Shown piece by piece: positions 10,794 to 24,232 of a stretch of 64,000 bases of DNA; within the stretch, counting starts at the first letter, position 1; each line of letters opens with the position of its first letter. This DNA is from Candidatus Saccharimonadota bacterium (GTDB lineage Bacteria > Patescibacteriota > Saccharimonadia > Saccharimonadales > Saccharimonadaceae), in the NCBI GenBank assembly GCA_017459705.1, contig JAFUCJ010000006.1, forward strand, positions 124,001 to 188,000, in the 5' to 3' direction. The position numbers and the translations under genes are program-made. A model generated the notes under the pieces. The model did not search any database. It saw only the letters and a program-made list of their open reading frames with translations, and was not told the origin of the DNA.

Positions 10794-12758
10794 TTATGAG
10801 ATGAGCGGCGACAAAATGATAGCGAAGCCGCCGCCGGGGGCAAGGTAAATATCGAGATTGTCGCGCCTAGTGATGCGGCGCTTTAATATCTGGTGAGCAT
10901 AAGGGTTGTCGCGATAGTGAGCGTCAGGGGCGTCGGCATAGATTGTGGCGAGATAAGTATTAGAGTCCAGAAAATTGAAGTCTAGGATGACATGACGCGA
11001 GGATTCGTTGGTGACCCCACCGATATACCATTCGTGGTCGTCGCTCTCGCGGGCTACAACGTAGTATTCTCCGATTTCGCCAGCGAGCGGCACGGTGCGT
11101 TCGTAGGTGGTGGGCACGCGACGGATGAATGTAAAGAGGTCAGGGAAGCGCTCCTCGTACATGAATGGGCGATCGGCGGCCATGGTCATGCCTGAGTAGA
11201 TGGTGACATAGTAGGCTAGTTGGCGCGTGATGGTAGTGGATAGACGTTTGACACTGTTTTCGATATCAAAAATGCCTGGCGTGTAGTCCATGCCGCCGGA
11301 TAATAATCTGGTGTAGGGCAAGAAACAGGCGTGCGACGGGCTGATGGCTCCGCCCTCATACTCTTGACCGCGAGCGCCCTCGCGAGAAAGCAGATTGGGG
11401 AAAGTGCGTTCAATACCGGTACCTTTGATGGGTTCGTGAATATCGAGGCAGATGTGCTTCCTTGCGGCAAGCTCGATGGTTTTCTGGTAGTGATTGACAC
11501 CAATTTGCGAGTGATGATACTCGTGTCGGCCGTTGATAGTCATCATGCTGCCGGCATAGCCGGTCTTGATAAAACGCACACCGCGGGCGGCATAATAATT
11601 ATAGGCGTCTTCGAGTTGAGATTCGTAATTGTCAACGAAACCGACGGTTTCGTGATGGCCGACAAGCTCGATATTTTGGCGTCTAGCGTAGCGGGCGACG
11701 GCGTCGAAGTCAAAGTCTGGCGTAGGGGTAGTAAAACTGTTATGGATGCCGTTTTCGAGCCAGTTGCCTTCCCAACCATCGTTCCAGCCCTCGATGAGAA
11801 GCCCGGAAATGCCGAGGCGGACGGCTGCGTTGATATATTCTATGGCGTGCTGAGTGGTGGCACCGTGTCGTTCGCCAGGCGCCCAAGTCCATTCGCCAAC
11901 ATACATGGCCCACCAGATACCGATGAACTTCAGAGTGTGCACCCATGAGAAATCCATGGTCGGGGCAGGATTTAGTGCATACATAACGCGGTTGGCGGTG
12001 AGGGCGAGAGCCGAATCGGCGATCATGATGAGGCGCCAAGGGGTTTCAAATGGTAAATTGACATGGGCTTTGGTGTGGTCAGAAAGTGGAGTGATGTCGG
12101 CGGCGAGGATATTGTTGTCGTTTAATTTGAGAGTCATGGAGCCATAATTATAGAGGGCGGCTTCGTGGATGGACAAGAAATATCCAGCGGGCGTGCTGAT
12201 AGTGAGTGGAGTATGCACGGAGGAGATGAGATTATAAATGTAGCTTTTCTCGTAATTATATTCATAACGATCAGGCTGATAGGCGGGGATTTTCCAGGTC
12301 GTAGCGTTGGGGCTGACGTTAAACTCGGTGAGTTCCTCAGTGATAGTGAGGCGTTGAAACTTGGGTTGGGGCGGTATTTCGTAGCGAAAAGCGACAGCGT
12401 CATTAAAAACTCGGAAACGCACAGTAAAGATGCGCGGGTTTTTGGTAGATTCGGTTAAATAGAATGCCGATTCGTGGTAATTGTTGTCGATGAAGCGATC
12501 TTCGCCCCATTGGAGCTCGATTTTTTCGTTTTTGATGCGGTTCTTGGTGCGAACGAGACGGAGGTTGCGACGCAGTGGCGCTTCGCCGCTCAAATTGAAA
12601 CCGAGCCTGGAATAGTCAATGATAGTCTTGTGGTCACGCATAACTTGATAGCAGATGGCGCCACTTTTGATGGCGAAGCGACAGACTGTGCGCCCGTCAG
12701 GCGAGGTGATTTCGCGAGTTAGATTGTCCTGTCGTAAAAGTTGTGCCCACTTGAACAT
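10794..12758 (-). CDS. Glycoside hydrolase family 97 (inverting, SusB-like alpha-glucosidase type)
   Basis: Predicted exo-acting alpha-glucosidase, 654 residues, no signal peptide. Order: N-terminal beta-sandwich (about 10-265), (beta/alpha)8 barrel (about 275-540), C-terminal beta domain. GH97 hallmarks: IHEA (E199, Ca site), GHHETVG (E370), HEPIKGTG, RTFPNLLSREG (E460) and ARGQEYE (E466). Where retaining members have the Asp nucleophile this protein reads IKTGYAG (G400), which together with E370 and E460 fits the inverting subgroup. GH97 is best known from Bacteroidetes with signal peptides, so a cytoplasmic copy here suggests acquisition and use on internal glucan or imported oligosaccharide. 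Its leaderless promoter is divergent from capA. Confidence 0.88.
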   Translation of the reverse strand: MFKWAQLLRQDNLTREITSPDGRTVCRFAIKSGAICYQVMRDHKTIIDYSRLGFNLSGEAPLRRNLRLVRTKNRIKNEKIELQWGEDRFIDNNYHESAFYLTESTKNPRIFTVRFRVFNDAVAFRYEIPPQPKFQRLTITEELTEFNVSPNATTWKIPAYQPDRYEYNYEKSYIYNLISSVHTPLTISTPAGYFLSIHEAALYNYGSMTLKLNDNNILAADITPLSDHTKAHVNLPFETPWRLIMIADSALALTANRVMYALNPAPTMDFSWVHTLKFIGIWWAMYVGEWTWAPGERHGATTQHAIEYINAAVRLGISGLLIEGWNDGWEGNWLENGIHNSFTTPTPDFDFDAVARYARRQNIELVGHHETVGFVDNYESQLEDAYNYYAARGVRFIKTGYAGSMMTINGRHEYHHSQIGVNHYQKTIELAARKHICLDIHEPIKGTGIERTFPNLLSREGARGQEYEGGAISPSHACFLPYTRLLSGGMDYTPGIFDIENSVKRLSTTITRQLAYYVTIYSGMTMAADRPFMYEERFPDLFTFIRRVPTTYERTVPLAGEIGEYYVVARESDDHEWYIGGVTNESSRHVILDFNFLDSNTYLATIYADAPDAHYRDNPYAHQILKRRITRRDNLDIYLAPGGGFAIILSPLIS

Positions 12759-12764
12759 AATATT

Positions 12765-12775
12765 ATTATAACACA
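12765..12775 (-). promoter_or_regulatory. Promoter of GH97, leaderless geometry
   Basis: On the minus strand TGTGT-TATAAT ends at 12765; the ATG begins at 12758, exactly 7 nt on. Confidence 0.7.
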
Positions 12776-12776
12776 G

Positions 12777-12787
12777 TATGCTATAAT
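12777..12787 (+). promoter_or_regulatory. Promoter of the CapA-like gene, leaderless geometry
   Basis: TATGC-TATAAT ends at 12787; ATG at 12794, exactly 7 nt on. It is back to back with the GH97 promoter, so 35 bp between the two starts serve both genes. Confidence 0.7.
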
Positions 12788-12793
12788 TGGAGT

Positions 12794-14287
12794 ATGAAGC
12801 GAAGACGGGAAAGTGTACTTAAAATCGCGGTGATTATAGGCTGCTTACTTTTGGCTGGTGCAGGAGTGTTCTTTGGTGCACAATTCGTAACGAAAACTGG
12901 CGTATTTCGAGTACCAGGCGTAGTGTATTATGATGACAATTTGACAGAAGAGGAGCGTGCGGCGATTGCGGGAGTATTGGAGGATGACGTCGTCTTGGAT
13001 AAGGATGTGATAGTCAAGGTTCGGCACGAGTTGATTCTGCCGGCGCTAGCTGAAAACGAGCGGCTGGTCGGAGTTTATGTGCCGGTAACTGGCTTTTATA
13101 ATGACGAAACTGATGTAGTGGTGTCGAGGGCGGACGAGCTTTGGCCAAATTGCGACTGTGGATGGCGGATGATAGATGTCTCCGAGCTAGACCACACGCA
13201 GAAATTATTGTCAATCAATGGACGATATTATCTTGATGATTATGCTGGTGGGGCGGTATTTCGGATTATAAGTTTCGAGTCGGAGAAATACGCCGAGGAA
13301 ATCTCGCCGCTGGTCGGTGGGCTATTCCAGAGTGAATACCCGCGCGCCGAGACGGTGACGACTCTGGCGCAGACTGGGGTAACGGCTTTTTCGCGACTAA
13401 TGAACGCCAAGATGGACGTTGTTGATAGCGGTGAGTATTTTGCGGCAGGTTTGTCTGATTTTCTGTCAAAGTATGACTTCGTGCATACGTCTAGCGAGGC
13501 TTCTTTCTACGAAGCGGCTTCACGTTCGGGAGCAACTGGAACGCCAATATGCAGTGACCCGAGGTTTATTGATACATTGAAAGCAATCAAACTGAATATC
13601 GTAGAATTAACTGGTAATCACAATGCGGACTGCGGGTATAAAGCGGCGGCCGAAACGGTAGATATTTATCGTGAGAACGGTATCCGTATAGTGGGTGGCG
13701 GCAAAAACGCTGATGAAGCGGCGGTGCCTTTGGTGCTAGATGACGGTGGGTCGGAAGTGACACTCCTTGCCTATAATTTATCGACGGGCGGAGCGACGCT
13801 TGGCAATTATCCTGGGGCGAACCAGTATTATGAGGAAGTTGCCGCGGCACAAATCCGCGAAGCAAAAGCGCGAGGCAATCTAGTAATAGTGGACATGCAG
13901 TATTATGAATGCTCGGCATACGTATCAGACATTGAGGATGCCACTTGCGATTCGCCAGCGGCGACACCGGGAGACGAAGTAGGATTTTTCCGGCACTTGG
14001 TTGATCTCGGTGCAGACGTGGTAGTGGGGACTAGCGCACACCAACCGCAAACATATGAACTGTATGGCGGCGGGGCGATCTATTATGGGCTTGGCAACTT
14101 GTTTTTTGATCAATATCGTTGGCCGGGCACAACACGCAGTCTGATACTGGTACACCATATATATAATGGTAAGATTCTGCAAACAGAGGTAAGACCGACG
14201 CAGTACGATGGCGATTTTGTACCGGAGCTTTTGGATGCGGAATCGAGCGAGGCCTTCCTCAACAGATTAAAAGGTTCCCGACCGTAG
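12794..14287 (+). CDS. CapA/PgsA-type metallophosphatase-fold surface protein
   Basis: 497 residues: basic N-terminus, one membrane helix (about 9-32), an N-terminal domain without clear family (about 35-190), then a CapA domain. CapA features: VHTSSEAS, ELTGNHN followed by GYKAAAETVDIYRENGI, GTSAHQPQ, and YYGLGNLFFDQYRWPGT near the end. CapA proteins are needed for poly-gamma-glutamate capsule and related surface polymers, though their reaction is unclear. No capB/capC neighbours are visible, so a poly-glutamate capsule is not supported. Convergent with the beta-helix gene. Confidence 0.85.
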   Translation: MKRRRESVLKIAVIIGCLLLAGAGVFFGAQFVTKTGVFRVPGVVYYDDNLTEEERAAIAGVLEDDVVLDKDVIVKVRHELILPALAENERLVGVYVPVTGFYNDETDVVVSRADELWPNCDCGWRMIDVSELDHTQKLLSINGRYYLDDYAGGAVFRIISFESEKYAEEISPLVGGLFQSEYPRAETVTTLAQTGVTAFSRLMNAKMDVVDSGEYFAAGLSDFLSKYDFVHTSSEASFYEAASRSGATGTPICSDPRFIDTLKAIKLNIVELTGNHNADCGYKAAAETVDIYRENGIRIVGGGKNADEAAVPLVLDDGGSEVTLLAYNLSTGGATLGNYPGANQYYEEVAAAQIREAKARGNLVIVDMQYYECSAYVSDIEDATCDSPAATPGDEVGFFRHLVDLGADVVVGTSAHQPQTYELYGGGAIYYGLGNLFFDQYRWPGTTRSLILVHHIYNGKILQTEVRPTQYDGDFVPELLDAESSEAFLNRLKGSRP

Positions 14288-14299
14288 CCGAGAACCTTT
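14270..14299 (+). terminator. Hairpin over the capA stop codon
   Basis: AAAGGTTC and GAACCTTT form an 8-bp stem; the capA TAG lies in the loop. No T-tract follows, so termination activity is uncertain. Confidence 0.5.
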
Positions 14300-14350
14300 C
14301 GAAATGGGTTATATTACCATTATAGCACATATCGTCATATTTGTCAATGG

Positions 14351-15922
14351 CTAGCGTCTTCCGCCGTTTTGCATCATGTTGTTGTAGTTCTGGTTTGAAT
14401 TGCCAACTGTGGTGGTGATTGCTGAAATGGTGAACGACTGGTATTGTTCACCGTTGACGTAGACGGTGTATGTTTCACCGGATTTGAAATCTGGCGTACC
14501 AACCGCCATGTGATTGAAAGTCTTAGCGCTAGTATGCTCTATAATCGTGTTTCCGGCAGAGTTTTTGATTTCGATGGTAGTGCCGGCGGCCTGGACGGAA
14601 GTAAAGTAGATGCTGGCATTGTAAACGCCGCTGGTGCTGCCGAGAGTTTCCGCCATCCCGCTAGCACCAATTGCGATGACGGTGCCGCCATTTTGCTGGA
14701 TACTGACACCAGTGTCGAGGGCGCCGTTGCCATTATTGGTGGGGCCGTCAACGGTAACGGTGCCGCCATTGAAGTAAATATAGCCGTTACTATCGATGCC
14801 GTCTCCGGAGGCGTTGACATAGATGTTGCCGCCGGCGATGATGAGGACACAGGACGTATTGGCGTCAAAGGCGCCAGCTCCGGGACGATTCATAGCGGAG
14901 GAGTCGGCTCCGCCACCAGCGTTAATACCATCATCGGAGGCCACAATACTAATTTCGCCGGCGTTGATTGTAATGGCTTGGGCTTCCAGACCCTCGTAGG
15001 ACTTTTTGATGTTGATTTTGCCACCATCGATGATGAGTTCGCGGTCGGCATGAACTCCGTCGTCGGACGACGTGAGTGTGAAGTTACCTCCTGCGATACC
15101 GACGTAGTTGTTGGAGTGGATGGAGTCATCGGTCGAGGTAATGACGAAGGAGCCATCGTAGATGAGGGTGCTATTGATAGATTTGATGCCTTTGGCACCG
15201 GATTTGATAGTGAAATTGCCGTCCTCAATCAAGACGAAACCTTTATTGCCATCGGTTTCGTTAGTGGATTTGATGGCGTCGGCGGTTGCGGTGAGATTAT
15301 ATGTGCCGCCTACAATATAGACGGAATCTTTGCCACGAATGGCGTCATCGGCGGCAGTGATATTGTAGGTGCCGGAGTTGAATTTGAGGTCGTCCTTACT
15401 GACGATACCGTCTTGGTAATGGGCGGTGAGACTAAGGGTACCGTTGCCCTGGAAGGTGAGGTCGGATTTGGAATAAATAGCACCTTGGACATCTTCGTCG
15501 TAGGATGCGTCGTATTTGCTGGCGTCCTCGATGGTATTGTCGCCAACCAGTTCGATGACGAGGTCGTCGGCGTTGTAGCAGGCGATGGCCGGGCCATTGG
15601 GATTTTTGATGGTGACATTGTCAAGAACAAGCTTAACTACGTTGTCGCTGCTGGCGTTGATGATGATGGCGCCGGACGTGAGGCTACCGGTGAGGTGATA
15701 AGTACCAGAAGCTGTGATAGTATAGGAATAATGTTCATTGAGGTTTACTTCGTAGGTGGGGTAACGATCCCAGTTGATTTTGAGGTCGCCATTATCGGTG
15801 GTGATGGTTCCGGTTATTTTGCCACTGCCCGTAGGGGCGTGATTCAGATTTAGTACTACACCGGTTGCAACAAGAGCTATGCCGGCGGCGCCGAGCGCGA
15901 CGAATTGATATGGTTTAGCCAT
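14351..15922 (-). CDS. Beta-helix carbohydrate-binding surface protein (Cthe_2159/DUF4353 family)
   Basis: 523-residue exported protein. N-terminal signal anchor (about 1-26), then a linker rich in T and G, then repeated units around SDDGI/SDDGV/ADAIK with GG(T/N)(Y/F)(N/T) strands, the pattern of a right-handed parallel beta-helix with acidic, probably calcium-binding, turns. Founder Cthe_2159 binds cellulose and acidic sugars. A C-terminal beta domain ends in a low-complexity N/Q/M tail. The start at 15922 overlaps the previous stop by 1 nt (TAATG) and has SD GAGGAGG; an in-frame upstream ATG at 15943 is rejected. Last gene of the VTC-DUF4956 operon. Confidence 0.85.
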   Translation of the reverse strand: MAKPYQFVALGAAGIALVATGVVLNLNHAPTGSGKITGTITTDNGDLKINWDRYPTYEVNLNEHYSYTITASGTYHLTGSLTSGAIIINASSDNVVKLVLDNVTIKNPNGPAIACYNADDLVIELVGDNTIEDASKYDASYDEDVQGAIYSKSDLTFQGNGTLSLTAHYQDGIVSKDDLKFNSGTYNITAADDAIRGKDSVYIVGGTYNLTATADAIKSTNETDGNKGFVLIEDGNFTIKSGAKGIKSINSTLIYDGSFVITSTDDSIHSNNYVGIAGGNFTLTSSDDGVHADRELIIDGGKINIKKSYEGLEAQAITINAGEISIVASDDGINAGGGADSSAMNRPGAGAFDANTSCVLIIAGGNIYVNASGDGIDSNGYIYFNGGTVTVDGPTNNGNGALDTGVSIQQNGGTVIAIGASGMAETLGSTSGVYNASIYFTSVQAAGTTIEIKNSAGNTIIEHTSAKTFNHMAVGTPDFKSGETYTVYVNGEQYQSFTISAITTTVGNSNQNYNNMMQNGGRR

Positions 15923-16593
15923 TAGATTTCCTCCTCGCAACACGGCTCGGACAAGAGGACTTTGAGGTTCATGTTCTTGACGCGAATGGCATCGAGGAAC
16001 TCTTTTTCTTTGACGCCATGTTTGATTTTGACATCGTAAGTAAGTTTATAAAGACTGCCCATATTCATAGTCTTCATGCGAACTAAGTGATGGCGAGAAG
16101 TGTATTGCTTGAATATATCGGAGAAGACTTCTTCGTAGTCGAGATCTTCTGGAATGACGATTTTGAGGACGCGTTCATGACGATCCGGTTCGAGTAAGTG
16201 CGTGTAGGCAAAAATGATACTGGCGATAATGTAGATAGCCATGATGACGACCCCGAAGAGAACGTGTCCCATACCGCAGGCGAGACCGATAGTCATGGCC
16301 GCAAATACTGCCATGAGGTCCTTGGCGCGGCCAGCAATCGAACGGAAGCGGATGAGCGAGAATGCGCCGAGAATTGCAATGGATGTGCCGAGGTTGCCAT
16401 TAATCATAATCATAACTGCCATGACGAGTACTGGCATAATAGCCAGCGTAATCATCATGCCCTTGGTGGTCTGGTTGGTTTTAGCATGGGTAATCGCAAG
16501 GGCGATACCCAGTATCAGGGCCACGCCGGCGGCGATAAGCGCGGTGGGGATTTCGAGCCCCGTAGTACTCGTGTCGAATATAGTGTTAAACAT
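15922..16593 (-). CDS. DUF4956 membrane protein
   Basis: 223 residues, four predicted membrane helices in the first 130 residues, with the conserved segment GAFSLIRFRSIAGRAKDL between them, followed by a cytosolic alpha/beta domain ending in EPCCEEEI. Matches the DUF4956 family, whose function is unknown but whose genes commonly accompany VTC-domain genes. SD AAAGGAG lies 4 nt before the ATG, inside the end of the VTC gene (8-bp overlap), so the two are coupled. A role with the VTC protein at the membrane is inferred from gene order alone. Confidence 0.85.
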   Translation of the reverse strand: MFNTIFDTSTTGLEIPTALIAAGVALILGIALAITHAKTNQTTKGMMITLAIMPVLVMAVMIMINGNLGTSIAILGAFSLIRFRSIAGRAKDLMAVFAAMTIGLACGMGHVLFGVVIMAIYIIASIIFAYTHLLEPDRHERVLKIVIPEDLDYEEVFSDIFKQYTSRHHLVRMKTMNMGSLYKLTYDVKIKHGVKEKEFLDAIRVKNMNLKVLLSEPCCEEEI

Positions 16594-17353
16594 TTTGCTC
16601 CTTTCTTATTTGTTCATATATTTTGCCGATTTTGCTAAATCTTTGTGGGTAAACGTGTTCGGTAGACATGGTGCGAACTAACCAGAGTGGCAGTCCGCCG
16701 TTTGCCTTTACTTCCATTATAATATGATTTTGGTCAGGAAATAAAGCCTTATCGATTGATTTTTTATGAAACTTTAAGCTTCGATTGCGATATTTCAGGT
16801 TGGTATCGAAGGTAATACGCAGACCATCTTCGTTTCGGTAGCTTTCGCGATTGTAGTAAACGAGAATCTTGGGTTTCAAATCAAAGTGTTTTATCATGTA
16901 GTCGATTTCTTTGGCAATTTGGAGATCGGCGGGCTGTTCGATGTGCTGAGCGGCCAAATCGCCGACGGTATTTTTGCCCTTGCGAAGCATTTCGAAATCG
17001 TGGTGCGTGATGAGAACACGGCGTTTGTAGCCGAGATTGACATCCTTCATCAGGTCATCCGGGTCGAGTATTTCGTCACGATATGCGGCGCCACGAATTT
17101 TGGTTTTGATTTCGAGGAAGACTTTGTCGTAACCGCCGTAGCTGCGGGCGCGAAGTTTTTCTTTAAACGCCGGCTGATCGATCGACTGGATAATGAGATC
17201 ATAATTATCGGTGTCGAAATATAAATTATAGATTTCGGACTGATAATACTGGTCCTCTTGCATTTTTTGTTTAATACGTTGAATAATGGCGTCGTATTGA
17301 CTTTTGGTGATGAGGTATTTTTTCTCGACGCGGTTAAACTTTTTTTCGTCCAT
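16586..17353 (-). CDS. VTC-domain protein (polyphosphate polymerase-like)
   Basis: 255-residue triphosphate-tunnel-type domain. Tunnel features are in order: VEKKYLI at the N-terminus, NLYFDT, KEKLRARSY, VFLEIKTKIRG followed by YRDE, ILVYYNRESY, LRITFDTNL, and IIMEVKANGGLPLW near the end. In yeast Vtc4 this domain makes polyphosphate from ATP; many bacterial homologues are untested. No membrane helix of its own; the next gene (DUF4956) could supply the membrane part. The ATG at 17353 fits the promoter exactly; an in-frame ATG at 17377 lies upstream of the promoter and is rejected. Confidence 0.87.
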   Translation of the reverse strand: MDEKKFNRVEKKYLITKSQYDAIIQRIKQKMQEDQYYQSEIYNLYFDTDNYDLIIQSIDQPAFKEKLRARSYGGYDKVFLEIKTKIRGAAYRDEILDPDDLMKDVNLGYKRRVLITHHDFEMLRKGKNTVGDLAAQHIEQPADLQIAKEIDYMIKHFDLKPKILVYYNRESYRNEDGLRITFDTNLKYRNRSLKFHKKSIDKALFPDQNHIIMEVKANGGLPLWLVRTMSTEHVYPQRFSKIGKIYEQIRKEQNV

Positions 17354-17359
17354 ATTTTT

Positions 17360-17365
17360 ATTATA
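17360..17365 (-). promoter_or_regulatory. Promoter of the VTC operon, leaderless geometry
   Basis: Minus-strand TATAAT ends at 17360; the ATG begins at 17353, exactly 7 nt on. No TG extension here (GGG precedes it). Confidence 0.65.
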
Positions 17366-17383
17366 CCCTAGAATCATAAAATG

Positions 17384-17445
17384 AACCTTAAAAAACTGCG
17401 TGGCATTTTTTGCTATAAGGGTAGTTTATCCGGAGTTTTAAGGTT
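17384..17445. repeat. Inverted repeat between VTC operon and two-component system
   Basis: AACCTTAAAA (17384-17393) and TTTTAAGGTT (17436-17445) are a perfect 10-bp inverted repeat around 42 bp. One arm lies upstream of each divergent promoter. Possible operator for the adjacent response regulator. Confidence 0.5.
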
Positions 17446-17458
17446 AATTTTACCTAGA

Positions 17459-17469
17459 TATGGTAATAT
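17459..17469 (+). promoter_or_regulatory. Promoter of the response regulator, leaderless geometry
   Basis: TATGG-TAATAT ends at 17469; ATG at 17476, exactly 7 nt on. Confidence 0.6.
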
Positions 17470-17475
17470 AGTAAT

Positions 17476-18150
17476 ATGAGAATATTATATGTAGAAGACG
17501 AGAAATATCTGGCGGAGGCCGTGATACATTTATTGAAAAAAGAGAAGATCATGGCTGACTTGGCCGAGGACGGTGAGGAGGGGCTGAGGTTAGCACTAAA
17601 ACCAAATTATGATGCGGTGGTACTTGATATCATGCTTCCGAAAATGTCGGGGCTCGAAATACTACAAGCGATGCGGGCACGTGGAGTGAAGACGCCGGTA
17701 ATAATGCTTTCGGCGCTAAATGAAGTCGAGGATAAAGTAAAAGGGCTTACGCTAGGTGCGGATGATTATCTCGCGAAGCCGTTCAAGACGGCGGAACTAA
17801 TTGCGCGAATCAATGCGATTTGTCGGAGACCGGCACTTAGTACTGCGACTATCCTGGAATGTCAAGACTTGACATATGACGTAAGTAATCGAACATTGAA
17901 TGGCGTAGCACTGACGGATAAGGAAGCAGAAATCCTGACGATGCTAATGAAAAATCCGGACGTGGCAGTCACAAAACAACAAATACTGGCGCGGGTATGG
18001 GGCGCAGATGCAGAGCTGGACGAGAATTACGTTGAAGTATATATATCGTATCTACGCAAAAAGTTAAAAGAACTGGGGTCAAAAGTAACAATTAAAACCA
18101 TCCGCGGGTTAGGATATAAGTTGAACTATGTTCAAGAAATTGCGAAATAA
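17476..18150 (+). CDS. OmpR-family response regulator
   Basis: 224 residues. Receiver domain with acidic pocket E7-D8, phosphoacceptor D51 in VVLDIMLP, a serine at the conserved switch Thr/Ser position (MLSAL) and K in LAKPF. Winged-helix DNA-binding domain from about 128, ending GLGYKLN. Overlaps the sensor kinase gene by 23 bp, so they are coupled. Targets are not known; the divergent VTC operon is the obvious candidate because of the shared intergenic inverted repeat. Confidence 0.94.
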   Translation: MRILYVEDEKYLAEAVIHLLKKEKIMADLAEDGEEGLRLALKPNYDAVVLDIMLPKMSGLEILQAMRARGVKTPVIMLSALNEVEDKVKGLTLGADDYLAKPFKTAELIARINAICRRPALSTATILECQDLTYDVSNRTLNGVALTDKEAEILTMLMKNPDVAVTKQQILARVWGADAELDENYVEVYISYLRKKLKELGSKVTIKTIRGLGYKLNYVQEIAK

Positions 18151-19060
18151 ATTAATACTAATTAATGTGGGAATTACGACCGTAGTGCTGGTCGTGGCTT
18201 TTTCGGCGGTCTATTTCGTATCGACGCATACGGCGAATAATCGCCCACCCGTACCGAGCGAAGTAACAATGCAGGAAACTACAAATGGTGTCGATATCAA
18301 TAAAATTATTACCTTTACGATTCGCGAAGAGAAACAGGCCGCGGCACGAGATTTGCTAGTCATGCTGATTGTGTCTGGTATAGTAGTGGACGTGGCGGTA
18401 CTTTTCGTGTCGTACCTGCTGGCCGAGCAAGCAATTAAGCCAGTGCGCGAGGCATACGAAGCACAGAAAATCTTTATCGCCAACGCTTCGCACGAAATCA
18501 AGACGCCACTTGCGGCGATTTCGGCGAATCTTGAAGCGGCGGATATCCATGATAATAAGTGGATTGACAATGTAGTGATCGAAGCTGACAAATTGGCGGC
18601 GCTTAATGGCGAGCTATTGACGCTCGCGCGAACGGATTTGATGACAGAAAGACATACTGAGGAAGTGGATGTCTCAGAAATTGTGCAAGTGTCACTGACA
18701 AGATTTAATCCGCGGATGAAAAATCTTAAACTCACGAAAAAAATCATAAAAAACGAAAAGGCAAAGATTAACAGGGAAGATTTCGTGCAGATTATTTCTT
18801 GTCTGATGGATAATGCGGTTAAATATGCTGGCACCAAAATACGAGTCGAACTGCAACCGCATCGCCTGACTATCGCGAATGACGGAGCGACAATTAGCGA
18901 TCAGGCTTTACCGCATATTTTTGAAAGGTTCTATCAAGCAGACAAAACAGCCGAAGGCGTAGGGCTAGGACTTTCGATAGCGAAAAACTTAGCCGATAGG
19001 AATGGGTGGGATCTATCAGCTAAGTCGGACAAGTTGACCGAGTTTGCTTTAAGTTTTTAG
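18128..19060 (+). CDS. Membrane sensor histidine kinase
   Basis: 310 residues: two membrane helices (about 10-32 and 75-98) around a short external segment of roughly 40 residues, no HAMP domain clear, DHp domain with H122 in ASHEIKTPL, and HATPase_c with MDNAVKYA, IANDG, IFERFYQ and GVGLGLSIAKNLA. The short external segment makes it more likely to sense a membrane or envelope condition than a large ligand. Partner of the preceding response regulator. Its last 41 bp overlap the 3' end of the opposite-strand MATE gene. Confidence 0.93.
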   Translation: MFKKLRNKLILINVGITTVVLVVAFSAVYFVSTHTANNRPPVPSEVTMQETTNGVDINKIITFTIREEKQAAARDLLVMLIVSGIVVDVAVLFVSYLLAEQAIKPVREAYEAQKIFIANASHEIKTPLAAISANLEAADIHDNKWIDNVVIEADKLAALNGELLTLARTDLMTERHTEEVDVSEIVQVSLTRFNPRMKNLKLTKKIIKNEKAKINREDFVQIISCLMDNAVKYAGTKIRVELQPHRLTIANDGATISDQALPHIFERFYQADKTAEGVGLGLSIAKNLADRNGWDLSAKSDKLTEFALSF

Positions 19061-21017
19061 CGTACTCCGCGATGATTTTGGCTGTGGCGGTGTTACCAAT
19101 GGAGCTATCGATACAGAGGTCGTAGTTTTCGCGAGCGCCCCAGGTAAGACCAGAGATGGTATTGTAATATGAAGCGCGATTTTTGTCGGATTTTTTGATG
19201 GATTTTTTAGCGGCGGCGAGGTCGTCACCGTACATTTCTTTGAGTTTTTTGATGCGATAGCTTTCCGGTGCGAAGATAAAGACGCGGAAGAGAAGTTTGT
19301 TGCCGCGTAAAACATAGTCAGCGGCGCGTCCGACGATGACGCAGGAGCCATGCTTTGCAATTGAATGAATAGCCTGCTGTTGCGCTTTGATAGCGTATTC
19401 GGCTGGCTTAGAACTAAGGTAAAGGTCACGCATGGCACCTTCGTCGTCACGATTATTGATTTCGTTTAGATATTGTTCAGAAAGGCCAGATTCTTTGGCG
19501 GCGATCGCGATGAGGTCTTTGTAGTAGTATGGGATGTTTAGTTCTTCGGCAACGAGGCGACCAATCTCCTTGCCGGCGGAGCCATGCTCGCGGGCGATGG
19601 TAATAATGATGCCCGGGTGAGATTTAGCGACTGATTCTGGCGCGGCGGCACTAGTCGTCATGCGTCCTAATTTGATATAGAAACGGACGGCAAGAGCGCC
19701 GGCGACAATGATGCCGATACCATCGGCAACCGGGGCGGCATAGAGAACGCCATCAATACCAAAAGATTGTGGCAAAATGAGGCAGAGCGGGACAAAGCAG
19801 ACGAGGTCGCGCATTAGTGAGGAGATGGTGGAGCGCTTAGGCTCGCCGACAGCCTGAAAGAAAATCGAGATAGCCTTAATAAGGAGCGTAAAGATAATAA
19901 ACATGAGGAAGATACGGAACATTTTGCGAGCGAACTCCATATATAATTCGTCGGATGCGCCGAAGATGCTGATAACGACGTCGGGGAAAAGTTGAAAAAT
20001 GAATGTGGCGACGGCGCCAATAATGATAGTGCCGATGACGACAATCCGGAATGTTTCGCGGACGCGAGCGTATTTGCCGGCGCCGTAGTTAAAGCCAAGG
20101 ATAGGTTGCGCTCCGACAACGAGACCAACGACGATATTGATGACAATCATAAATACCTTCATGGTAATGCCCATGACGGCGATCGGAATGTCGGCACCGT
20201 AAATGGACTCGGCGCCGTATTTGGCGAGCATGATATTGCCAACGAGGGCAGTAACTACGATGGCCATTTGAGTAATGAAGGTGGAGATACCGAGTTTGGT
20301 AAACTGCCAAAAAACGCGAAAACTAAACTTGAAACTATCTAATGAGAGTTTGAAAGTTTTGGCGCGGAAGAAGACGTAGTAAATGCCAATGAGGAAAGAG
20401 ATGATTCGGCCGATAATTGTAGCGTAAGCCGCGCCCTCAATACCGAGGTTGAGTCCGAAGATAAAAATCGGATCAAGTATAATGTTGAGGACAGCGCCAG
20501 AAACCGTGACGACCATAGAAAATGCGGGCGAGCCGTCGGCACGAATAATGCCGGAGAGCACGCCGCCCATAACCGAAGCCGTGGTGGCAGTCAGGATAAT
20601 CGTGAAGTACGATTTGGCGAGTGGGAGCGAGGCGTCGGAAGCTCCAAAAAGTCCGAGGAGCGGATCCATGAAAACAAAACAGAGTATGATAAATATGATG
20701 CTGATGGCGATATTAGCAACAATGGCATTGCCGATAATCTTACTGACGCCTTTATCGTCTTTTTGTCCTTGGCGGATGCTCATGAGGGCGACGGCGCCGT
20801 CACCAAAACACCATGCGAAGGCAAATGAAATAATTGTGATAGGAAAGACAACTGAGGTGGCGGCGTTGCCGAGGTAACCGAGCGATGAGTTGCCGATGAA
20901 AATCTGGTCAACTATATTATATAGTGCGCTAATTAGTAGCGACAAGATGCACGGGATGGCAAATTTGCGAAGCAACTTGCCAATGCGCTCCGTGCCGAGC
21001 GCTTGATTGTTTTCCAT
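19020..21017 (-). CDS. MATE-family transporter fused to a cytidylate kinase-like domain
   Basis: 665 residues in two parts. Residues 1-450 are a complete 12-helix MATE transporter (NIVDQIFIG, GAVLNIILDPIFIFG, VGAQPILGFNYGAG, FFQAVGEPKRS). After a short linker, about 468-655 form a cytidylate kinase-like domain (Pfam AAA family type) with ITIAREHGSAGKEIG as its nucleotide loop, IPYYYKDLI, CVIVGRAADYVL and a basic lid RIKKLKEMYG. The fusion puts a putative nucleotide kinase on the cytosolic side of a drug/cation exporter. SD AAAGGA precedes the ATG; a minus-strand TGTAAAAT about 75 nt upstream is a possible promoter. Convergent with the histidine kinase (41-bp overlap). Confidence 0.88.
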   Translation of the reverse strand: MENNQALGTERIGKLLRKFAIPCILSLLISALYNIVDQIFIGNSSLGYLGNAATSVVFPITIISFAFAWCFGDGAVALMSIRQGQKDDKGVSKIIGNAIVANIAISIIFIILCFVFMDPLLGLFGASDASLPLAKSYFTIILTATTASVMGGVLSGIIRADGSPAFSMVVTVSGAVLNIILDPIFIFGLNLGIEGAAYATIIGRIISFLIGIYYVFFRAKTFKLSLDSFKFSFRVFWQFTKLGISTFITQMAIVVTALVGNIMLAKYGAESIYGADIPIAVMGITMKVFMIVINIVVGLVVGAQPILGFNYGAGKYARVRETFRIVVIGTIIIGAVATFIFQLFPDVVISIFGASDELYMEFARKMFRIFLMFIIFTLLIKAISIFFQAVGEPKRSTISSLMRDLVCFVPLCLILPQSFGIDGVLYAAPVADGIGIIVAGALAVRFYIKLGRMTTSAAAPESVAKSHPGIIITIAREHGSAGKEIGRLVAEELNIPYYYKDLIAIAAKESGLSEQYLNEINNRDDEGAMRDLYLSSKPAEYAIKAQQQAIHSIAKHGSCVIVGRAADYVLRGNKLLFRVFIFAPESYRIKKLKEMYGDDLAAAKKSIKKSDKNRASYYNTISGLTWGARENYDLCIDSSIGNTATAKIIAEYAKNLKQTRSTCPT

Positions 21018-21157: not shown

Positions 21158-24100
21158 ATGCTTGAAATTCGAGGTGTGACAAAGGTCTATGAGACTGGCG
21201 GGCTGAAACATAAGGCACTGAATAAAGTCTCAATCAATTTTCGGACTTCGGAGTTTGCTGCGATTTTGGGGCCAAGTGGTTCCGGTAAGACAACTTTGCT
21301 CAACATTATTGGTGGGCTTGATCATTATACTTCGGGGGATTTGAAAATCAACGAAGTTTCCACGAAAAACTTTCGCGATAAAGATTGGGATGCATATAGG
21401 AATCATCGAATTGGTTTCGTATTCCAGTCGTATAATTTGATTCCGCATCAGACGGTCTTGCAAAACGTACGACTCGCCCTGACACTGTCTGGCATTTCTA
21501 AGCGCGAGGGGATTCGGCGCGCGAAAAAGGCCTTGACGGATGTGGGATTGAAAGATCAAATCGATAAGAAACCCAGCCAGTTGTCAGGTGGGCAGATGCA
21601 ACGTGTAGCGATTGCGCGGGCGCTAGTCAATGACCCAGATATTTTGCTGGCGGATGAGCCGACCGGAGCACTAGATTCGGACACGTCGGTACAGATTATG
21701 GAGCTTTTGAAAGAAATCTCCCAGGAGAAGCTGGTAATCATGGTGACACATAACCCGGAGCTGGCGGCCGAGTATGCGACGAGAACAATTACGCTGAAAG
21801 ACGGTGAGATTACGTCGGACTCGAATCCGTACGACGGAAAGGTTAAGACTAATCTCGACACAGACGCGGTAGCTAGGCGCCAGCATAAGACGCGGATGTC
21901 ATTCGTGACGGCTTTGTCGCTGTCGCTGAAAAATCTTTTGACCAAGAAAGGGCGGACGGTCTTGGTGGCTTTTGCTGGTTCGATTGGTATTATCGGCATT
22001 GCGCTGATTCTCGCGGTTTCGACTGGTTTTCAGGCCTACATAGATTCAATCGAGCATGATACGCTGACTTCGTACCCTTTGGCCCTGATGAAAGAATCTA
22101 CGAATATCACAGGTATACTGCTCAATTTGACCGGCGCCGGCGACAGCAAAAAGGCCGAGGATGGCAAAATTATTGAAAATCAAGTCTTGACAGGTTCGCT
22201 GGGTAATGTTACGCAGAATGACCTAGCGAGTTTCATGACGTATTATGACAACCGCCGCGATGAGTTAAAGGACGACGTACGGCTCACAGAGTACGAATAC
22301 AATATTGACCCGCTGATTTACACGATCGATGCAACTGGCGAGCTAGCTAAGCTAAATCCGAGTAGTTTGTTCTCGACTATCATGGGGAGTGGCTCGCTGC
22401 TAAACTCATACTCCAATCTTACTTCTGTGTTTCGGCAATACGAGCTTGATAATATGGTTGCAGATACTGAAATCGTCGCCGGCCGCTATCCGGAGGCGTA
22501 TAATGAGATGGTGGTGTATTTGCCGAACTATGGCGAAATCTCCGAGCTTCTGACTTATTCGCTGGGATTTCATGATACGGATGAGCTTAGCAATATCATC
22601 AAGGCGATTATGGGCGGGGAAAAGGTCAATATCAAAAATGAGCCATTGGCGCTCGGATACGACGATTTGATGGGTGTAGATTTGCGACTAATTGATGCGG
22701 CGGACACATATCGATACAACGATAAATATGATGTTTACGAGGACATGTCTAATGATACTGCATACATGCGTGGCTTGTATGATAATGACTCGGAGCGTCT
22801 TAAAATCGTCGGCATAGTAACGCCGAAGTCTAGTATGCTATCTAGTGGGAGCGGGATATTTTACCTGCCGAGTCTGACGGAGCATATTATCGCTCAGTCG
22901 GCCGAGACGGAAATCGTGAAAAAGCAGATTGCAAATCCGACGATAGACGTGTTCTCGAATACCAAGTTTGGCGAAAATGGCAACAATTTTAATTTTGGTT
23001 TTTCAGATTTGGTGAGTGTCGATCAGGCGAAGCTCGCTTCGGCGATTCGAGTGAATCTTGACCAGAATGCCGTAGCGCTAAAAACGCAAGAGTATATAAC
23101 GCAGATTGGTAACGACATCACGGCGGATGTGTCGCCAGTCCGTGATGAGTTGAAGACGAAGCTCGACGATATATATAATGGTTTCTTGCTGTGGCTACAA
23201 AACGAGCAGAGCAAGCCGGATTTTGATATGTCGAAAATGGAGGAATATATCGAAAAATATGTCGAGAGTCAAGATTTCGGCGATTTGGAGGGGAAGTATC
23301 TAATTCCTGTGGCTACTTTCAAGGATGCCTATACTGGGCTATTAAAACTCAAAATGTCAGGGCCGGCAGTGCCAAATGCTGATGAACTAATCGATACTAC
23401 TATCGAGACGCTAGCAATCAAGATTACGGAAGTAGTAATGAAATCGGAGGTTCTGACGAAGGTCGGCAATTTGACGGCATATCTGACATCGAGCTTCGCA
23501 GATTCGTTCGGCATCGACTCCAATGCTTTGCTTGGCGCGTTCACGCTCAATTTCTCAGAAGATGAGTTGGCGAGAGTAGTGTCGGCGATGTTTAACGAAA
23601 AAGAGGCCACCTATAATACCAATCTGGCGATGCTCGGGTATCAAGATTTGAATGACCCGATGGAGATTGCGTTTTATTTCACTTCTTTCGATGGCAAAAC
23701 GAGATTCATGGAGTTCCTAGATAACTATAATGCACTAATGAAAAGCTATGGGCAGGAAGACAAAGTCATCGAGTATTCGGATACGACTGGGATGTTGATG
23801 GAATCAGTGAAAGTAATCGTGGATGCCGTGTCGTATGTACTCATTGCTTTTGTTTCGATTTCACTAATCGTATCGTCGATAATGATTGGCATTATTACCT
23901 ATATTTCGGTATATGAAAGGACAAAGGAAATCGGAATCCTGAGAGCGATTGGTGCCAGCAAGCGCAACATTTCGTCGATATTTAATGCTGAGACATTTAT
24001 CGTGGGACTACTTAGCGGATTATTTGGTATCGGCATATCGTATTTACTGATTCCGATTATTAACGTAGTGCTTCACCATTTCACCGGGGATATACCATTG

Positions 24101-24232
24101 TCAGCGCAGCTGGCGCCAGTATCGGCGTTGATATTGATTGGTATCAGCATTGTATTGACTCTAATCGGTGGGTTGATACCGGCGAAATCGGCTTCGAAAA
24201 AAGATCCGGTAGAGGCACTTCGGTCCGAATAG
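21158..24232 (+). CDS. MacB/FtsX-type ABC exporter, ATPase and permease in one chain
   Basis: 1024 residues. ATPase domain 1-225: Walker [11 protein letters not shown]-loop FQSYNLIP, signature LSGGQMQR, Walker [14 protein letters not shown] and switch MVTHN. The permease begins with a membrane helix at about 267-290, then an extracytoplasmic domain of some 600 residues, then three helices near the C-terminus with the FtsX pattern [19 protein letters not shown] and the ending [10 protein letters not shown]. Such transporters use mechanotransmission to move lipoproteins, peptides or antimicrobials. The external domain is much larger than MacB's (about 220), so its client may differ. No MacA-like adaptor is visible. 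Probably followed by the MMPL gene's own promoter. Confidence 0.9.

Follow-up and report, generated by a model that had tools for sequence, protein, structure and literature searches.

A CiaR-like two-component system and a VTC-DUF4956-beta-helix operon with matching promoter boxes in a ruminant-gut Saccharibacteria genome

What joins a two-component system to a divergent operon that encodes a VTC-domain protein, a DUF4956 membrane protein and an acidic beta-helix protein? We address this question in a stretch of 64,000 nucleotides (nt), hereafter the window, from contig JAFUCJ010000006.1 of assembly GCA_017459705.1 (positions 124,001 to 188,000). The host is a Candidatus Saccharibacteria from the ruminant gut, a tiny symbiont described as a minimal epibiont, and its genome of 728 kb is 99.9% complete with 0.15% contamination. 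DUF4956 and VTC are widespread in Clostridia and Bacilli without an established function, and a likely direct regulator together with its box makes this DUF-containing pair a testable regulon. The best explanation of our results, in which our confidence is evenly balanced, is a polyphosphate (polyP) polymerase that is coupled to the membrane, has a surface partner and is under the control of a CiaR-like system.

The original prediction, made from the letters of the window, had described the operon as translationally coupled by overlaps of 8 and 1 bp and divergent from the genes of an OmpR regulator and a short-loop sensor kinase. All five genes lie as it placed them; VTC and DUF4956 overlap by 8 nt, DUF4956 and the beta-helix gene by 1 nt (TAATG). 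The features, in window coordinates, are as follows:

14351-15922, minus strand: Cthe_2159-type right-handed beta-helix protein, 523 amino acids (aa); PF14262, E 5e-77
15922-16593, minus strand: DUF4956 protein, 223 aa; PF16316, E 1e-13
16586-17353, minus strand: VTC-domain protein, predicted polyphosphate polymerase, 255 aa, ATG start; PF09359, E 1e-34
17360-17365, minus strand: TATAAT, -10 element of the VTC promoter, 10 nt downstream of its box
17376-17392, minus strand: CiaR-type box facing VTC, TTTAAG-GTTCA-TTTTAT (box scan and scored search)
17437-17453, plus strand: CiaR-type box facing the response regulator, TTTAAG-GTTAA-TTTTAC (box scan)
17464-17469, plus strand: TAATAT, -10-like element of the response-regulator promoter, 10 nt downstream of its box (read from the sequence)
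17476-18150, plus strand: OmpR-family response regulator with a CiaR-like recognition helix, YVEVYISYLRKKL (compared with Table 1 of PMC3091779)
18128-19060, plus strand: sensor histidine kinase, 310 aa, HisKA (PF00512 and PF02518)

The open reading frames were called mechanically and counts may err by one or two. For the beta-helix gene we prefer the ATG at 15922 over the caller's GTG at 15943, because GAGGAGG precedes the ATG and the TAATG overlap results. Strong Shine-Dalgarno sequences stand before the DUF4956 and beta-helix genes. None precedes VTC or the regulator gene, and both -10 elements end 6 nt before the ATG, suggesting that these two mRNAs are probably leaderless. The kinase has, as read from its sequence, two transmembrane (TM) segments and a short extracytoplasmic loop.

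CiaR-type boxes at the divergent promoters

Two oppositely oriented copies of TTTTAAGGTT(A/C)ATTTTA lie in the 122-bp intergenic region, one towards VTC and one towards the regulator gene, and both divergent promoters read TTTAAG-N5-TTTWA-N10-(-10). Streptococcal CiaR binds NTTAAG-N5-TTTAAG with the -10 element ten nucleotides downstream (PMC3091779); the second repeats of the window, TTTTAT and TTTTAC, are without the G that the same study calls important. When up to two mismatches are allowed, the two intergenic boxes are the only matches in 64 kb, for an expectation of 0.03. The scored search, which in the host genome covered the 64-kb window, finds the VTC promoter (17360-17392) as the sole site at or above 14, barring its own one-base shift; the regulator-facing site scores below 14. 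It is this CiaR-type box, common to both promoters, that ties the two-component system to the operon, a link absent from the original prediction.

The same signal is enriched at related loci. A simpler box pattern occurs 22 times in 17 divergent regulator/VTC intergenic regions versus 1.8 times in shuffles. The exact pattern missed many sites since the second repeat varies, and we replaced it by a scored search over 17 positions. A score of at least 15 is reached upstream of 30/94 VTC genes and 14/37 regulator genes versus 1/696 other genes, and a score of at least 14 upstream of 47/94 VTC genes versus 8/696. The scoring was fixed after sites had been seen in those loci; a later sample of Bacilli is an independent test, and there a site scoring at least 15 lies upstream of VTC in 8/40 cases versus 1/146 for other genes. 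Sites also precede VTC genes that have no linked two-component system (loci L052, L053, L054, L167 and L172). CiaR-like control of the VTC operon is well supported: the DNA pattern is observed, and the regulator would be what binds it.

The recognition helix of the window regulator, YVEVYISYLRKKL, is identical at 9/13 positions to the CiaR helix VVEVYVSKVRKKL (PMC3091779), and many linked regulators carry a (H/N/Y)VEVYISxLRKKL helix. Judged by helix and promoter box, the window regulator is CiaR-like. It is the sole full-length OmpR-type regulator in the host genome, where the second match covers a receiver segment with 33% identity. Of 40 Clostridia loci, 22 have an OmpR-type regulator within 6 kb, versus 1/20 random regions of the same genomes (plus two partial matches). 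Among 20 Clostridia genomes chosen for having a linked regulator, the best match of the window regulator is the VTC-linked one in 13 (expected 2.8, an expectation that allows for this choice; P ~9e-8, optimistic for related sequences). In the tree, linked and Saccharibacteria regulators form one clade with support 1.0; most CotH-type loci have different regulators.

Streptococcal CiaRH is among the closest known systems, with a box 10 nt from the -10 element on its own and its target promoters, a similar recognition helix and autoregulation. The window system differs in its host, which belongs to another phylum, in its 310-aa short-loop kinase and in having the VTC operon as its apparent main target.

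As a separate observation, the VTC genes of L052, L053 and L054 have near-perfect CiaR-type promoters, and their upstream gene is of the aspartyl-tRNA synthetase type.

Predicted functions of the operon proteins

A profile of 86 VTC sequences matches yeast Vtc4 at E 1.6e-21. The window residues pair with those of Vtc4 as K12=K200, R68=R264, R70=R266, K83=K281, K85=H283, K110=K294, R169=R361 and R179=R373, and, in a weak second alignment stretch, as E214=E426, K216=K428 and K241=K458. All mapped tunnel residues are invariant in the 86 sequences, so the conservation on which the original prediction had depended holds in this group. Vtc4 H283 is replaced by Lys (K85); the other checked tunnel residues are identical to those of Vtc4. 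In yeast, the R264A/R266A/E426N mutant of Vtc4 is catalytically impaired (PMC9911596). Triphosphatases carry ExExK and ExE motifs (PMC4641920, PMC8233210), which in the window protein read RxExK (first Glu = R8) and ExK (last Glu = K216); two triphosphatase-motif glutamates are basic here, as in Vtc4. The AlphaFold2 model (pLDDT 92) has as its nearest solved fold the Vtc4 tunnel domain with AppNHp-Mn (3g3r; Foldseek E 4.5e-16, TMq 0.71), and other triphosphate tunnel enzymes reach about 0.45. Neither PPK1 nor PPK2 is found in the host genome.

From these comparisons, the VTC domain is probably a polyphosphate polymerase-type enzyme, with its activity predicted. The original prediction had proposed that the gene set could make, anchor or sense an anionic surface polymer; sequence and model support polymerase-type chemistry, and a polymer at the surface, like its anchoring or sensing by the beta-helix protein, is putative.

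The protein may instead act without synthesizing free polyP, as a triphosphatase, a sensor of polyP or nucleotides, or a phosphotransferase acting on a surface polysaccharide, for instance Pel, to modify or regulate it. CYTH folds are diverse in activity, E10 is invariant, related clusters contain Pel and chitin-synthase-like genes (PMC7112168, PMC2879425), and in a rumen Bacilli locus (L084:10995-12922) genes for a GT2-GtrA fusion and an NAGPA phosphodiester glycosidase directly follow the triad. We nevertheless judge this quite unlikely: the equivalent of the catalytic K458 and the Vtc4-type basic replacements are invariant, Foldseek puts Vtc4 far above the triphosphatases, and the window cluster is without a glycan synthase.

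For the DUF4956 protein, the AlphaFold2 model (pLDDT 81) predicts five TM helices (15-39, 44-63, 68-85, 90-107 and 111-130) and a cytoplasmic ACT-like C-terminal domain (beta-alpha-beta-beta-alpha-beta), which corrects the four-helix protein originally proposed. In hhalign, the DUF4956 and MgtC alignments match with probability 95.8 and P 7.8e-9 over 195 columns, versus P 0.06-0.4 and at most 35 columns for seven other locus families. DUF4956 is, on this profile and model evidence, a distant MgtC homologue: it has the five TM helices, the ACT-like C-terminal domain and a full-length profile match, and differs in missing the Pfam MgtC model and in having its own SLIRFRS motif. The window protein stays below the Pfam MgtC gathering score and matches the DUF4956 model only, and the MgtC model has no match in the host genome; one Clostridia DUF4956 protein matches it at E 8.5e-4. 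A PDB sequence search with DUF4956 gave no match, and Foldseek gave weak ACT/ferredoxin-like matches only. The conserved SLIRFRS motif is predicted to be on the cytoplasmic side. R82 is nearly and R84 fully invariant, and the positive-inside rule predicts the loop that contains them to be cytoplasmic.

The VTC-DUF4956 pair had been called unexplained, which is nearly right; yet Pel-locus versions of the pair, and the MgtC/ACT assignment for the Streptococcus intermedius Pel-locus homologue, are already published (PMC7112168, PMC12345266).

The homology to MgtC would also fit a different role, intracellular homeostasis: VTC would store or buffer phosphate and ATP as cytosolic polyP, DUF4956 would, like MgtC, regulate VTC or other enzymes of the membrane, export would not occur, and the surface protein would belong to the same regulon as a distinct output of envelope stress. 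Targets of MgtC are ATP synthase and PhoR (summarised in PMC12345266), and the sequence offers no proof of a channel. Against this, the secreted protein is tightly coupled in translation to the pair in Saccharibacteria, and secreted third genes, for beta-helix or CotH proteins, recur in Clostridia and Bacilli; we consider a purely intracellular role unlikely.

With a pI of 4.4, the beta-helix protein is acidic; it has a hydrophobic N-terminal segment and is predicted to be exported or membrane-anchored. Binding of Ca2+ and acidic sugars, by which the Cthe_2159 family is characterised, is a putative property of the window protein. Its domain matches the right-handed beta-helix of the Cthe_2159 structures 4peu/4phb (E 4e-25), from which the window protein differs by a longer C-terminus and the absence of a lipobox. 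Many Clostridia versions have an apparent lipobox (by eye).

Recurrence of the triad and the proposed mechanism

VTC stands beside DUF4956 in 63/63 loci from Saccharibacteria and rumen Firmicutes, and the beta-helix gene is also present in 60 of them; this triad is the sole set common to all their contexts. Because VTC and DUF4956 occur together in every one of these loci and the beta-helix gene in nearly all, the arrangement is not chance. DUF4956 is found in about half of the sampled Clostridia genomes (128/243), and in the loci fetched from them VTC adjoins DUF4956 in 40/40, with a beta-helix gene adjacent in 20 and a CotH kinase gene in 11. About a quarter of the sampled Bacilli genomes encode VTC (79/296); among 40 Bacilli loci picked by VTC presence, DUF4956 lies beside it in 39, with about 16 beta-helix and about 15 CotH neighbours. 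The recurrence of the pair in bacteria, as originally proposed, is thus confirmed.

In the tree, the Saccharibacteria copies form two supported clades nested within Firmicutes, which suggests that ruminant-gut Saccharibacteria apparently acquired the module from gut Firmicutes at least twice.

A similar arrangement, VTC-DUF4956 with CotH, is already known from the vicinity of Pel genes (PMC7112168, PMC12345266), and a C. perfringens locus combines VTC genes with CotH (PMC2879425). The Gram-positive Pel clusters (CotH-polyphosphate polymerase-DUF4956, in some cases with DUF4832) share with the window a VTC gene beside a DUF4956/MgtC-ACT gene and a secreted third protein. They differ in that the window has a Cthe_2159 beta-helix protein in the third slot, no CotH, and a divergent CiaR-like two-component system; by Pfam, the nine genes between 10.8 and 24.2 kb of the window include no pel gene. 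The CotH-VTC-MgtC/ACT arrangement was reported as not found outside Pel loci (PMC12345266), but several of our CotH-VTC-DUF4956 loci from Clostridia and Bacilli have neighbours without recognised Pel domains. The beta-helix variant, its CiaR-type control and its presence in Saccharibacteria were not found in the literature that we searched and appear to be new.

Could the genes merely travel together while the two-component system regulates something else? The genes for GH97, PGA_cap and ABC proteins are likewise syntenic in the genus. However, the triad persists across unrelated contexts and phyla, and the box occurs on VTC promoters even where no two-component system is linked; the box counts largely refute this explanation, which we regard as very improbable.

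In the explanation that we favour, the CiaR-like system would control its own genes and the divergent operon, its phosphorylated regulator binding the TTTAAG-N5-TTTWA boxes, which in both promoters take the place of a -35 element. VTC, whose residues and fold point to this reaction, would polymerise phosphate from ATP on the cytoplasmic face. The MgtC-like DUF4956 protein would tether and gate VTC, much as the membrane part of yeast VTC passes the chain through the membrane. We propose this membrane coupling because of the near-obligate VTC-DUF4956 adjacency, the fold of DUF4956 and its homology to MgtC. The yeast complex (Vtc4/Vtc3/Vtc1) has the same tunnel fold, catalytic residues and pairing of a cytoplasmic polymerase with a membrane protein; in the window, VTC is the domain alone, with neither an SPX nor a fused TM domain, and the MgtC-like partner is a separate chain. 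In the weakest step of the proposal, the acidic, Ca-type beta-helix protein would be exported, and its target at the surface would be the product, Ca2+ or a partner polymer.

In S. mutans, one gene of the ciaXRH operon encodes a Ca-binding protein that mediates repression of this operon by calcium (PMC8317062). By analogy, a Ca-type surface protein under CiaR-like control suggests, as speculation, divalent-cation feedback on the window system.

A more general model is tentative, and we think it somewhat unlikely. It would have bacteria synthesize and export polyP independently of PPK, through VTC and an MgtC-like protein, under CiaR-type control across phyla and with a secreted Ca-binding or kinase protein at the end; Saccharibacteria would have acquired this at least twice, and the operon, the sole target seen for the host's only OmpR-type regulator, would perhaps serve a surface for host contact. 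If true, this would be a second bacterial polyP route, would link MgtC-like proteins to polyP, and would explain the retention of a single OmpR-type regulator by a minimal epibiont.

Several points weigh against the favoured explanation. To our knowledge, polyP synthesis has not been demonstrated for any bacterial VTC protein of this type, and the known role of MgtC proteins is that of regulators and not of channels. At the position of Vtc4 T198 the group keeps an invariant E10, which leaves one residue of the triphosphatase acidic patch in place. A good box is present in only about half of the VTC operons, and the sequences compared are related, which overstates their independence and makes the P values, Fisher's included, optimistic. 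In about half of the Clostridia loci the beta-helix gene is swapped for CotH or absent, so the beta-helix protein is not essential to the VTC pair. At the S. intermedius Pel locus, deletion of VTC left Pel and aggregation intact, deletion of the DUF4956-type gene changed both, and deletion of CotH also gave a phenotype (PMC12345266); these results do not demonstrate a joint VTC/DUF4956 product.

Host distribution, flanking genes and minor observations

The close relatives of the host are named Candidatus Saccharibacteria and come mostly from the ruminant gut. DUF4956 is found in 27/60 sampled relatives, every one of the same genus, and in 5/126 sampled genera of the host's class. We reject contamination as the source of the locus: its estimated level is 0.15%, and dozens of Saccharibacteria genomes share the locus. 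Nor do the genes form a defence or phage set, as PADLOC and PHROGs return no matches; Rfam has none at the locus.

Throughout the genus, GH97 glycosidase and PGA_cap genes (10794-14287) are found flanking the operon. A gene for a MacB-like ABC protein (1024 aa, 21158-24232, plus strand) lies near the triad in most group-A Saccharibacteria. In two rumen Bacilli (L085 and L086), a MacB-like ABC gene is 1-2 kb from the beta-helix gene, perhaps by co-transfer. The three accompany one Saccharibacteria group and were rejected as parts of the module: syntenic in the genus, they are boxless and absent from most other triad contexts.

Convergent with the kinase gene, and overlapping it by about 41 nt, a MATE efflux-Cytidylate_kin2 fusion of 665 aa (19020-21017, minus strand) is not seen at the sampled relatives' loci. 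At 14270-14347 (minus strand), a sigma-70 promoter (12/12, with a TG extension) followed by a strong hairpin (z -3.9) lies antisense to the end of the PGA_cap gene and is not conserved in relatives.

Elsewhere, a DHH-DHHA2-CBS-DRTGG gene of the family II pyrophosphatase type lies directly upstream of VTC-DUF4956-CotH (L190:3342-4988), and a VTC homologue with 35% identity is present at MT835527.1:5221-5892, in an unannotated record from human faeces labelled Bacteriophage sp.

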